From contig NZ_CP026952.1 in assembly GCF_003065605.1 (NCBI RefSeq), forward strand, positions 2,232,001 to 2,296,000: a stretch of 64,000 nucleotides of DNA. Direction: 5' to 3'. Below are positions 14,386 through 18,287 of this stretch, one piece after another. The stretch's first letter is position 1; every line of letters begins with the position of its first letter. The DNA is from Aeromicrobium chenweiae (GTDB lineage Bacteria; Actinomycetota; Actinomycetes; Propionibacteriales; Nocardioidaceae). The translations under genes and the position numbers were made by a program. The notes beneath the pieces were generated by a model, which was not told where the DNA came from, did not search any database, and saw only the letters and a program-made list of their open reading frames with translations.

Positions 14386-15183
14386 TCAAGCGGTGGGGAA
14401 CCTGCGTGCCAGATCGGCGTGCAGCATCTCTCTGTCCGTCGCACCGAGGGGGCCTGGCCGGTTCAGTCTTTTGGCCACGTTACGCAGGGTGAGCGCCGGG
14501 ACGCCCCCCACAACGAGAGACGACACCGGCAGGTCGGCCCCGAGGAAGCAGTAGGCCGCGCTGACAGGCGTCTCCGGGCGCGGACCGTCCCTGACCGCTG
14601 CCGACACCGCTGCAACCTGCCTCTGCATACTGGCCGACAGCGACGGGCGCCTGCGCCCGTCGATCAGGAACACGTCCTCAGAACGGGCGGCACGGACCTT
14701 CCGTCCGTTGTACTTCTTGGGGTCGATGACGTGAACACCCGACGGCGCGATCGCCAGCATGTCGATGTCCCCTTGCTCGCGTCCCGTGCCCCGGCGTCGA
14801 TTGAACAAGAACAAGACGTCCTCGCCAGTCGCCCTTCGCAGCTTCTCGGCCGCTTCCCGCTCTCCTGCGGCGCCAATCGCGAAGGCCTCAGTCGTCCTCG
14901 GGGTTGGAGTGATGAGCAGCAGAAAACCGCCAACCCACGGGTGCGCCGCACGTATTCGCGCGGCACGTGCCGTCGCGCGGCGCTCGTGCTCGCGTTGCAG
15001 AGAGGCTCCGGGGACGCCGATGTCGACCGTCTCAAGGGCGTCCTCCGTCTTGAGACATGGGGAACACAGAACCATGCGCCGCGACGGGTCCCACCCCGCG
15101 CGGGTGCCTCGCGGCAGAAAGGTTCCGCACAGACACTCGCCGTCGCGGCGAAGCTCCATCAGCCTGACGTCACCATGCGTCAT
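14386..15183 (-). CDS. NERD-domain (nuclease-related) protein with zinc motif
   Basis: 265-residue cytoplasmic protein. The N terminus holds a four-Cys zinc site (Cys17, 19, 40, 43) in ECLCG and VLCSPC, with PRGTRAGWD between. The NERD domain spans about 104-200: GAAGEREAAEKL, then GDIDMLAIAPSGVHVID with the acidic metal ligands, and PKKYNGRKV with the catalytic Lys. This is the PD-(D/E)xK nuclease core. GGAGGGAG precedes the ATG at 15183. It lies in the putative islet between the 26-bp repeats, next to the NUDIX 3' end. NERD proteins are linked to DNA processing and, in some contexts, defence; which applies here is unknown. Confidence 0.8.
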   Translation of the reverse strand: MTHGDVRLMELRRDGECLCGTFLPRGTRAGWDPSRRMVLCSPCLKTEDALETVDIGVPGASLQREHERRATARAARIRAAHPWVGGFLLLITPTPRTTEAFAIGAAGEREAAEKLRRATGEDVLFLFNRRRGTGREQGDIDMLAIAPSGVHVIDPKKYNGRKVRAARSEDVFLIDGRRRPSLSASMQRQVAAVSAAVRDGPRPETPVSAAYCFLGADLPVSSLVVGGVPALTLRNVAKRLNRPGPLGATDREMLHADLARRFPTA

Positions 15184-15266
15184 CGCGGTCTCCCTCCCAC
15201 TGCCTTCGGCAGATTCTGGAGCATCTCGGAGCACCGCGGGGCAGAAACCAGACGGTCGGTCGCGAT

Positions 15267-15292
15267 TCAGCGCCGCAGCGGCGGGTGCAGCG
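15267..15292. repeat. 26-bp direct repeat, proximal copy inside NUDIX 3' end
   Basis: Encodes the last eight codons and stop of the NUDIX gene on the minus strand and is identical to 13518-13543. It marks the proximal border of the 1.75-kb segment. Confidence 0.8.
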
Positions 15293-15950
15293 TCGTGACG
15301 TCACCGAGGGTGTAGGTCTTGGCCGGTCGACCTCGTCCCTCGGAGACGACGTCGCCGGTCTCGCGCACGAATCCCTCGACCGACTGGACCTTGCGCTGGA
15401 AGTTCGCGGGGTTGAGCTGCTTGCCCCAGACGATCTCGTAGACGCGCCGCAGGTCGCCGATCGTGAAGACCGGGCGGCAGAACGACGCCGCGATCGGTGA
15501 GTACTCCAGCTTGGAGCGGGCCCGCTCGATGGCGTCGGTGAGCATCTCGTGGTGGTCGAACGGCAGGTCGGCCGCGAGCAGCTCGTCGACCGGCAGCCAG
15601 ATCGCGTCGGCGTCGGTGCCCGTCGAGCCGTCCGGCAGGTTGGGCAGCACGGCGAGGTACAGGACCGCGAACGTCCGGGCACGGGGGTCGCGGTCGGGCG
15701 CGCCGTAGGTCCCGACCTGCTCGAGGTAGTCGACCTCGAGCCCGGTCTCCTCGCGCAGCTCCCGCCGGGCGGCGGTCTCCAGGTCCTCGTCGACGTGGAC
15801 GAAGCCGCCGGGCAGCGCGAGACCGCCGCGGTTCGGCTCGGCCGCACGCCGGATCGCCATGACCTTGAGCTGGCGGTCGCGGATCGTCAGCACGACCACG
15901 TCGACCGCGACGTACGCCGACGGGCGCTGGGGTGGAGTTTCCGTCGTCAC
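15267..15950 (-). CDS. NUDIX hydrolase with C-terminal winged helix (NrtR-like)
   Basis: 227 residues. Residues 10-140 are a NUDIX domain with the box from G48 to G70 (key residues in DEDLETAARRELREETG), and 150-225 form a winged helix (PVFTIGDLRRVYEIVWG, NFQRKV, GRPAKTYTL). This two-part layout is that of NrtR, an NAD-metabolism repressor that senses ADP-ribose; some members retain ADP-ribose pyrophosphatase activity, and the catalytic EExG here is intact, so both are possible. The GTG start at 15950 lies four bases after the stop of the macro-like gene, giving a tight operon. Its 3' end serves as the border of the neighbouring islet. Confidence 0.85.
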   Translation of the reverse strand: MTTETPPQRPSAYVAVDVVVLTIRDRQLKVMAIRRAAEPNRGGLALPGGFVHVDEDLETAARRELREETGLEVDYLEQVGTYGAPDRDPRARTFAVLYLAVLPNLPDGSTGTDADAIWLPVDELLAADLPFDHHEMLTDAIERARSKLEYSPIAASFCRPVFTIGDLRRVYEIVWGKQLNPANFQRKVQSVEGFVRETGDVVSEGRGRPAKTYTLGDVTTLHPPLRR

Positions 15951-15954
15951 CGGC

Positions 15955-16722
15955 TCACCAGCCCTTCGGCCTCACGACGTTCTCCGGCGCATCGGCGAAC
16001 AGTGGCGCGACGTCGGCGTCGCTGAAGCCCGCGTGCCCGCAGCCGACCCGGGTCAGCCAGAACACCCGCTCGGGGTGCTCGGCCGCGAATTGGACGAAAC
16101 GCGTCGCCGCAGCACCGAGCACGTCGAGACCCTGCATCGTCGGGATCGCGTAGCTGTTGCCACGCAGCCCCTCGCTGACGCCCCGCTCCGCGCCGAAGCG
16201 CTCGACCGCGAGTCGCGCGGCACCGCCGGTGTGGCCGCCCGTGGCGCCGCTGCCGAAGACGAACACGTCGCCGGGCTCCAGCGAGGTCACGGCGTCGGGG
16301 GTGGTCCGCGGGCTGCTCTCCTCGCCGGAGGGGACGCCGTACACGGCTTCGAGGAGCGGACCGCAGTCGCGGGCGTACTCGGCCATCGCCTCCAGCGTCG
16401 TGTCAAGCACGTCTGCCGTCACACCGTCGGGATGCAGGCGCGCACTGAGGAAGACCGCGCCCTCGTCGCCCAGGATGACCTTCGCCCAGATCATGGCGCT
16501 GTTCAGGTGGTTGATCTCGGCCCAGGCCTCGGTCGACACGCCGGTCGCGATCCGGGCGAAGACGTGGACGTGCGGTCCCGGGTCGTCCACCACGCCCACG
16601 TAGATCTGCGTGCCCTGCACGTCGACCGGCCAGTCCCCGTCGTCGTCCACGGCGAGGTGGTCGGCACCGCAGGCCTCCTTGAGGGCGGCTTCGGCCACAT
16701 CTCTCAGATCGTTGTCGCTCAT
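15955..16722 (-). CDS. YbjN-like domain fused to macro-like (A1S_2505-type) domain
   Basis: 255 residues in two modules. Residues 1-125 match the YbjN/secretion-chaperone-like fold (QIYVGVVDDPGPHVHVFARI, INHLNSAMIWAKVIL), a likely protein-interaction part. Residues 150-255 resemble the macrodomain-like family that databases call A1S_2505 phage tail module: GDVFVFGSGATGGHTGGAAR, GVSEGLRGNSYAIPT, VFWLTRVGCGHAGFSDADVAPLF, ending ENVVRPKGW. The glycine-rich loops fit nucleotide or ADP-ribose binding. The ATG at 16722 has AAGGAG nine bases upstream. It is first gene of an operon with the NrtR-like NUDIX and is divergent from the ADP-ribosylglycohydrolase, which supports an ADP-ribose role by context. 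No activity has been shown. Confidence 0.75.
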   Translation of the reverse strand: MSDNDLRDVAEAALKEACGADHLAVDDDGDWPVDVQGTQIYVGVVDDPGPHVHVFARIATGVSTEAWAEINHLNSAMIWAKVILGDEGAVFLSARLHPDGVTADVLDTTLEAMAEYARDCGPLLEAVYGVPSGEESSPRTTPDAVTSLEPGDVFVFGSGATGGHTGGAARLAVERFGAERGVSEGLRGNSYAIPTMQGLDVLGAAATRFVQFAAEHPERVFWLTRVGCGHAGFSDADVAPLFADAPENVVRPKGW

Positions 16723-16820
16723 GTGCACCATCTCCTTCTCCACCAATGTGTCAGACGGGTCCGCCACTAATGGTGCAAGTGAGTATTAACGTGGTCGGCA
16801 GAGGAAACGAGGCGATCGCC

Positions 16821-18287
16821 ATGATGACCCATTCGGACAACCGGGCAGCGGGGGTGCTGCTCGGACAGGCATGCGGTGACGCACTCGGCGTCCCGTACGA
16901 GTTCGGGCCGGCGCTTCCGGAGTCTACGGTGCCGGAGATGATCGGTGGCGGCCCGTTCGGCTTCGACCCCGGCGAGTACAGCGACGACACCGCCATGGCG
17001 GTGTGCATCGCCGAGGTGGCGGCGACGGGCGCCGACCTGACGTCCGACGAGGCACTGGACAACATCGCCGAGCGGTTCCTCGAGTGGGGGGCGACCGCCA
17101 AGGACGTCGGCAACCAGACCCGGGCGATCTTCGCCGCCACGACTCGTCGGGACGGCCCGCGCGGCCGGGCGATGCGCGCCGCGTCCGCGGAGCACGCAGC
17201 TGCCCATCCCGGGCGCGTCGGCAACGGTGCCCTCATGCGGACGTCCGCGGTGGCCCTCACCCGCCTGGACGACCGGGACGCCACCGCGGCCGCCGCCCGC
17301 GCCGTGGCCTCCCTCACCCATGCCGATCCTCTGGGCCTCGAGTCGTGCGTCCTGTGGACCGAGGCCATCCGGGTGGCCGTGACCACCGGGGAGCTCGACC
17401 TGCTCGGCGGTCTCGACCTCCTCGACGCCGGCAGCCGCGACCGGTGGCGCGCCTGGATCCGGGAGGCGACCGACGTCGACCCGCGGACGTACCCGAGCAA
17501 CGGCTTCACGGTGTACGCACTGCAGGCCGCGTGGGCGGCCATCACCTGGACCCGCACGCCCGAGCTGGACGCCGAGGCGGGGACGTTCCCGGCACAGCAC
17601 TTCTCCCTCGCCCTGATGAACGCGGTGCGCACCGGCGACGACACCGACACGGTCGCCGCGATCGCCGGAGGCCTGCTCGGCGGCCACTGGGGCTGGTCGG
17701 CGATCCCCGCGCACTGGTCACGGCGGGTGCACGGCTACGGCGGTCACCGTGCCCGCGGCCTCGTCACGCTCGCGCTGCGGACCGCGGACCGGGGGACGTC
17801 CGGCGACCAGGACTGGCCCCTGGGCCCCTCCATGACGTCGTCGAGCTACCTCCACGCGCCGGAGCACCTCGCCGTCCACCCGCACGACGACGGCGTCATG
17901 CTCGGCACGTACCGCTCCCCCGCCCGCGACCACGACGCCGTGGTGTCGCTCTGCCGGGTCGGCACCGCCGACTTCCCCGGAGTGGCCGACCGGGTCGAGG
18001 TGCGGCTCATCGACTCCGACGTGCCGGAGGACAACCCGCACCTCGACTTCGTGCTCGCCGACGCGGCTGCCGTCATCAAGGAGCTCCGCGACGAGGGCAA
18101 GACCGTGTTCGTGCACTGCGTCGCCGCCCACCAGCGGACGCCTTCGGTGGGTGTCGCGTACGCCCGGCTGCTCGGAGTGCCGCCGGACCAGGCCCAGGCC
18201 GATGTCCGCCGCGTGCTGCCGGGGCTGCGGGGGCACGGCAGGCTGTGGGAACACGCGGCCCGGGTCCGCGAGGCGGAGCGCGACTGA
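16821..18287 (+). CDS. ADP-ribosylglycohydrolase fused to dual-specificity-type phosphatase
   Basis: 488 residues. Residues 1-330 are a DraG/ARH-fold hydrolase: GVLLGQACGDALGVPYEFG, the metal motif YSDDTAMAV (54-57), NGALMRTSAVAL, and the second metal motif DTDTVAAIAGGLLGG near 274. After a linker, residues 360-488 form a Tyr/dual-specificity-phosphatase-like domain with the CX5R loop at about 433-439 (HCVAAHQRTPS) and a DSD acidic loop. The ATG at 16821 has CGAGG eight bases upstream. It faces the macro/NUDIX operon across 98 bases. Removal of ADP-ribose and of a phosphate from one substrate, for example a phosphorylated ADP-ribose, is a reasonable inference. All key residues appear intact. 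Confidence 0.85.
   Translation: MMTHSDNRAAGVLLGQACGDALGVPYEFGPALPESTVPEMIGGGPFGFDPGEYSDDTAMAVCIAEVAATGADLTSDEALDNIAERFLEWGATAKDVGNQTRAIFAATTRRDGPRGRAMRAASAEHAAAHPGRVGNGALMRTSAVALTRLDDRDATAAAARAVASLTHADPLGLESCVLWTEAIRVAVTTGELDLLGGLDLLDAGSRDRWRAWIREATDVDPRTYPSNGFTVYALQAAWAAITWTRTPELDAEAGTFPAQHFSLALMNAVRTGDDTDTVAAIAGGLLGGHWGWSAIPAHWSRRVHGYGGHRARGLVTLALRTADRGTSGDQDWPLGPSMTSSSYLHAPEHLAVHPHDDGVMLGTYRSPARDHDAVVSLCRVGTADFPGVADRVEVRLIDSDVPEDNPHLDFVLADAAAVIKELRDEGKTVFVHCVAAHQRTPSVGVAYARLLGVPPDQAQADVRRVLPGLRGHGRLWEHAARVREAERD

Follow-up and report, generated by a model that had tools for sequence, protein, structure and literature searches.

We analysed a three-gene locus (genes A, B and C) in a 64,000-nucleotide stretch of the genome of the soil bacterium Aeromicrobium chenweiae (contig NZ_CP026952.1, positions 2,232,001 to 2,296,000), hereafter the window. 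The locus encodes an NrtR-like Nudix regulator (A), a chaperone fused to a domain of predicted macro fold (B), and an ADP-ribosylglycohydrolase (ARG) fused to a phosphatase (C) (Table 1). The trio is a small accessory set that probably removes ADP-ribose tags from proteins. An earlier interpretation of this DNA, made from its letters alone (the sequence-only reading), had assigned all three genes to ADP-ribose biology, and that assignment stands, as do the layout and coordinates it gave: B is transcribed first, A follows after a gap of 4 bases, and C runs the other way, its start codon 98 bp from that of B. The mechanical open reading frame (ORF) of B spans 15955-16767, the likelier start being the ATG at 16722, which is preceded, as judged by eye, by a GGAGA-like site; for C the ORF opens at 16746 and the likelier start is the ATG at 16821.

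Table 1. Features of the ADP-ribose locus, in window coordinates.
Feature	Position	Strand	Description
Gene A	15267..15950	-	NrtR-like Nudix + winged-helix regulator, intact Nudix box
Gene B	15955..16722	-	TY-Chap1 chaperone fused to A1S_2505 domain of predicted macro fold, 255 aa
Gene B, residues 2-130	16333..16719	-	TY-Chap1 / YbjN / type III chaperone fold
Gene B, residues 137-255	15958..16314	-	A1S_2505 family, predicted minimal macro fold, Gly at macro Asn position
Divergent control region common to B and C	16723..16820	.	98 bp, direct reading
Gene C	16821..18287	+	N-terminal ADP-ribosylglycohydrolase + C-terminal CX5R phosphatase, 488 aa
HCX5R phosphatase signature of C	18114..18137	+	direct reading + homologue alignment

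Comparisons were made with 49 Aeromicrobium genomes, some of them fragmented and one of them the window's own (G000), and with the best 80 of 519 confirmed actinobacterial loci that carry relatives of C. Genus locus maps came from a home-made gene caller, which left C unplaced in 7 of the 80 external loci, and neighbourhood counts in those 80 were made from six-frame ORFs; 9 of the 81 stretches, the window among them, have less than 4 kb before C.

Gene C combines a glycohydrolase with a phosphatase

Gene C matches the Pfam family ADP_ribosyl_GH (PF03747, 8.7e-49), and its best relatives in the Protein Data Bank (PDB) were 6dre, 2cwc, DraG and ARH3, followed by the tyrosine phosphatase 5z5b for the C-terminus (2.2e-4). 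When the window protein was aligned with 22 of 120 listed homologues, E27, S54-D55-D56-T57, D274, D276, T277, D398, H432-C433 and R439 were invariant across the 23 rows. With H, C and R of the HCX5R signature among them, the earlier assignment of a DraG/ARH domain joined to a CX5R phosphatase was borne out. C also keeps the ARH metal-site motifs, by the residue roles known for ARH3. C is thus like Tri1, DraG and ARH3 in its PF03747 domain and metal-site motifs and unlike them in its fused phosphatase, and it scores far under the NCBIfam cut-offs for Tri1 (99.8 of 490 bits) and DraG (80.9 of 337 bits). Relatives of C are common (at least 4263 matches at E 1e-3 among the best 7998 candidates scored).

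Two ARG-phosphatase genes lie in one Mycolicibacterium vaccae locus next to an NrtR-like gene (L036, 4146-7434), and one Aeromicrobium genome (G047) has two C copies ~11 kb apart. N-formylglutamate amidohydrolase (FGase, PF05013) adjoins an ARG-phosphatase at L113 (9884-10756) and is fused to one in P0146; FGase goes unmentioned in the main text of the study by Iyer, Burroughs, Anantharaman and Aravind (2022; PMC9503650).

Gene A is a Nudix regulator distinct from the NAD regulator

Gene A has the Nudix plus NrtR_WHD architecture (PF00293, 6.7e-21; PF21906, 2.7e-13) that the sequence-only reading had called a NUDIX-winged-helix protein, with an AraR_C match as well. Its PDB relatives were AraR 5bs6 and 3gz5, and it matched the NCBIfam model NtrR at 1.7e-40, yet its 139 bits fall short of the 400 that the model requires. 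When A was scanned against a defence library, its Nudix part matched a single entry, PDC-S07 (2.8e-7).

An NrtR-like match was found in all 37 of 37 good-quality genus genomes, and the window genome holds two such genes, namely A and a copy at G000:C1:2503446 that adjoins nadA and a FAD oxidoreductase (nadB by position). A was therefore rejected as the regulator of nicotinamide adenine dinucleotide (NAD) synthesis, since it adjoins the ARG-phosphatase and the separate NrtR-like gene adjoins nadA. A shares the Nudix and winged-helix domains of the NAD repressor MsNrtR (Gao et al. 2019; PMC6800001); unlike MsNrtR, whose Nudix motif is degenerate and which showed no apparent hydrolase activity, A has an intact box and stands beside the ARG-phosphatase, not nadA. 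Only five genomes (G000, G048, G044, G029 and G046) carry a copy more than 45% identical to A. A carries the strict Nudix box, as do all four of its close genus copies (the G044 copy being from the same genome as L002); the box was also seen in 4 of the 39 NrtR-like matches of the 80 loci and in none of the 20 housekeeping copies fetched. Most regulators linked to an ARG in the 80 loci are thus without the strict box, which is a mark of the subgroup to which A belongs. The close copy in G046, with its box intact, lies between Band_7 and TrkA_N (potassium channel type) genes (L119, 6185-9100), and that genome has no ARG match.

Gene B joins a chaperone to a domain of predicted macro fold

The N-terminal half of B is a TY-Chap1/YbjN chaperone (PF22551, 6.9e-17), and the trio thus includes a peptide-binding chaperone component. 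The C-terminal half, 119 residues in length, belongs to the NCBIfam family A1S_2505 (NF049995, 3.2e-36), for which NCBIfam gives only the label 'phage non-structural protein'; in PHROGs, B matches PHROG 2072, and the label is 'unknown function'. The AlphaFold2 model of B (mean predicted local distance difference test score, 93.9; predicted template modelling score, 0.57) indicates that the A1S_2505 half has a macro fold like that of the ALC1-like macrodomains TARG1, DarG and SCO6735, to which it shows 8-16% identity in the VIA rows listed. The half of B that had been described as macro-like was accordingly recovered as an A1S_2505 match with a predicted macro fold; it had no Pfam macro match (PF01661), and the chaperone half had been missed. 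A link of A1S_2505 to canonical macrodomains by sequence alone was rejected, as profile comparisons gave no signal. We call B a macro-fold protein and not a PF01661 member because both Pfam match and profile similarity are lacking. No PF01661 match was found in the G000, G044 or G048 genomes, so that our searches detected no macro-type domain there other than the A1S_2505 half.

In five other proteins (P0016, P0034, P0068, P0087, P0115) A1S_2505 is fused to ARG, Nudix, DUF1810 or PF10021 domains (by precomputed Pfam names) or, as judged by eye, to vWA. PF10021 is a PARG-like family, and the fusions suggest a possible part for DUF1810, too, in ADP-ribose biology.

The predicted active site of the fused A1S_2505 domain is altered

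An alignment of 120 listed A1S_2505 homologues (of 398 found) separated the TY-Chap fusions from other members at two positions. The residue after FGS is Gly in 10 of 11 TY-Chap fusions versus Asn in 111 of 113 other A1S domains, and the residue after GCG is His in 9 of 11 fusions versus Ile in 109 of 113 others; both substitutions occur in B of the window. A single clade of 11 sequences, to which the window belongs, unites the Gly fusions (support 99/90, with a bootstrap that had not settled), and they thus point to one event and not eleven; P0011, the sole fusion that has Asn, is not part of this clade. B has Gly in place of the macrodomain Asn, an equivalence drawn from motif order and not from superposition. 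In SCO6735 this residue (Asn27, before the glycine loop) is required for activity and is kept in almost all active macrodomains (PMC9411070), and N24 mutants of the chikungunya macro domain lose hydrolysis and keep ADP-ribose binding (PMC12632316). The A1S_2505 domain differs from the domains of TARG1, DarG and SCO6735 in having no detectable profile similarity to canonical macrodomains and, within the fusion clade, in the Asn and GCG-loop changes.

The trio is patchily distributed at a variable locus

Full-length B was found in 3 of the 49 genus genomes (G000, G048 and G044), in which all three frames are open and identity to the window is 84-94% for A, 78-85% for B and 79-88% for C; C matches, some fragmentary, occurred in 16 of the 49. 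An NrtR-like gene lies by C in these three genomes and in G029 and G003, the last of which has a second, distant NrtR-like copy (34% to A) next to an ARG fragment. The middle slot beside C is modular and interchangeable in the genus, being filled by the TY-Chap-macro fusion in G000, G048 and G044, by TY-Chap alone in G029 and by A1S alone in G035.

Among the 80 external C loci an NrtR-like gene was present in 39, upstream and divergent in 37, with 36 of those within 2 kb of the called C start; none was detected in the other 41, partly owing to contig ends. The sequence-only reading had looked to a conserved neighbourhood, and what recurs is the pairing of Nudix gene and ARG-phosphatase, in about half of the loci. 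ARPP, a Pfam family named for its association with ARG and rhodanese-phosphatase, was found in 12 of the 80 (Pfam confirmation in 4 proteins), TY-Chap in 8 (TY-Chap1 confirmed in 3 of the 8; the L035 match weak) and an A1S domain in one. The B relatives P0007 and P0009 are probably linked to the C relatives P0131 and P0142, whose contigs have the same listed lengths as theirs. In the phylum sample, A1S was detected in 1 of 396 genomes, the window's own.

The cassette occupies a variable locus. A core SNF2 helicase is present in 47 of the 49 genus genomes; A1S matches, found in 7 of 49, lie no more than 5 kb from it in all six genomes with both on one contig, and of the 16 genomes with C, 11 have it on the contig of the helicase, no more than 12 kb away in nine and no more than 35 kb away in the other two. 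The NERD gene just downstream of A (14386-15234) was rejected as a fourth member: NERD occurs in 21 other genus genomes, within ~6 kb of the helicase in 12, of which 10 have no C match, and so looks like locus background, and there was no NERD match in G048 or G044. Neither the NERD protein nor B or C had a match in the defence-library scan, and no ADP-ribosyltransferase (ART) or sirtuin was found among the 7 proteins scanned at and beside the trio. In G017 a large ARG island (L115, 3741-17469) carries HAD_SAK, FGase, ARG-phosphatase, DSPc and vWA and, divergent from these, TY-Chap3+TY-Chap1, a NERD-UvrD helicase, OsmC, A1S and an alpha/beta hydrolase.

Phage searches used the stand-alone A1S relative P0038 and C as queries in place of full-length B. 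P0038 had matches in 421 of 50,697 phage records, and the ARG part of C in 26. One stand-alone A1S gene, annotated hypothetical, lies near the start of the Schitoviridae record of Escherichia phage U1G (L168, 2995-3375). Among plasmids 29 of 72,556 records match B, none across more than 80% of its length.

In the control region, partly similar blocks were seen by eye in three Aeromicrobium loci, and the intergenic search found no promoter-like site. A GTCA-N3-TGAC palindrome, picked post hoc, scored high in 6 of 9 divergent intergenic regions (p 0 to 0.041, from 2000 mononucleotide shuffles) but not in those of the window, G048 or G044 (p 0.78-0.88).

Interpretation of the locus

We consider it somewhat better than an even bet that the trio forms an accessory cassette for ADP-ribose removal and belongs with the ARG-centric systems; in it C would erase the mark, B would read and hold its bearer, and A would regulate. 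Such systems were proposed by Iyer et al. 2022 (PMC9503650) as ARG plus phosphatase with a Nudix or WYL regulator, off by default, often with TY-Chap, vWA or SseB chaperones and optionally with macro and NADAR domains; a rhodanese/CX5R phosphatase occurs in little over 55% of them and a Nudix or WYL helix-turn-helix (HTH) regulator in more than 42%. They have no coupled ART or sirtuin, and reversal of phage-made ADP-ribosylation is predicted. The window locus is like them in its ARG-phosphatase fusion, Nudix-HTH regulator, TY-Chap1, optional macro domain and actinobacterial host. It is unlike them in placing TY-Chap1 and macro fold in one polypeptide whose macro half lacks the usual Asn, in that no ARPP was found, and in its intact Nudix box. 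A1S is absent from the main text of that paper, although the fusion may be drawn in its figures or supplements. Thus, the 'undescribed pathway' proposed by the sequence-only reading does not hold, since ARG, phosphatase, Nudix-HTH and TY-Chap were already described together; the TY-Chap1-macro fusion differs, and the locus is a variant of a published kind. Its other idea, reversal by the trio of a modification made by a toxin, came near the published proposal of removing phage-made ADP-ribose.

From the domains, gene order, predicted folds, motif state, patchiness and location we infer substrates, regulation, trigger and a reader role as follows. The glycohydrolase domain of C would strip ADP-ribose from a macromolecule that bears it, in all likelihood a protein, and its phosphatase domain would take phosphate off the released product or the target. 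The chaperone half of B would hold an unfolded or modified peptide while the macro-fold half recognises the ADP-ribose mark, offering the client to C. A would repress the divergent B-A and C promoters until released by ADP-ribose or a close product, which its intact Nudix centre may hydrolyse, ending the response; the likely trigger would be ADP-ribosylation by a phage or competitor enzyme. We put forward only tentatively the sharper version in which B is an ADP-ribose-reading chaperone whose macro half has lost hydrolysis and kept binding, so that ADP-ribosylated, perhaps misfolded, clients are caught and passed to the ARG-phosphatase, and A is a repressor that hydrolyses its own inducer, which would make the answer to foreign ADP-ribosylation self-resetting.

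Several points weigh against the removal cassette. The macro assignment comes from structure prediction only; hhalign against 24 canonical macrodomains gave a probability of 0.2%, below both controls (0.4 and 0.5%), in a test weakened by the shallow diversity of the A1S alignment, and the lone A1S domain had no Foldseek match below 1e-3 (best, 2.3e-3). In human TARG1, an active hydrolase, the Asn is replaced by Ser (PMC9411070), so Gly in B need not mean an inactive domain. The DSPc match of C is weak (9.2e-4; 19.5 bits against a Pfam cut-off of 33.5), the TY-Chap-macro fusion occurs in only 1 of the 80 external loci (A. stalagmiti), an NrtR-like gene adjoins C in only 5 of the 16 C-bearing genus genomes (some of the others being fragmented), and no operator was recognised in the 98-bp intergenic region of the window.

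Housekeeping, in the sense of metabolic repair of stray ADP-ribosylated molecules and NAD breakdown with no role in conflict, is in our judgement unlikely: some ARG enzymes use O-acetyl-ADP-ribose (PMC9503650) and the core NrtR controls NAD synthesis (PMC6800001), but the spread is patchy (B in 3 and C in 16 of 49 genus genomes), the position is at a variable locus, A is distinct from the NAD regulator, and ARG and A1S domains also occur in phages. Less probable again is a small-molecule role, in which the substrate would be a soluble derivative of ADP-ribose, for example ADP-ribose-1''-phosphate, the phosphatase taking the 1''-phosphate and the other domains recycling ADP-ribose. The KptA-like origin for this compound that the sequence-only reading had offered was rejected, as no PF01885 match was found in the window genome, which is 99.99% complete, and such matches are confined to 2 of 49 genus genomes (G006 and G026, both lacking the A-B-C cassette); moreover, the peptide-chaperone half of B and the TY-Chap and vWA partners elsewhere point to protein clients. 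That the trio is a decaying leftover of a larger ARG island with no present function is very improbable, for although B has Gly at the macro Asn and the gene set is small beside that of G017, none of the three frames is interrupted in G000, G048 or G044, the ARG and phosphatase motifs are invariant, and the Gly form is one supported clade.

The locus offers a compact three-gene test case for host answers to phage ADP-ribosylation, which are predicted and not shown in the literature we found; no experimental test of an ARG-centric system was recognised in searches of the open-licence literature. The A1S_2505 family, known only by phage and unknown-function labels, gains a predicted macro fold, and the residue state of its members would predict which of them bind and which cleave ADP-ribose.

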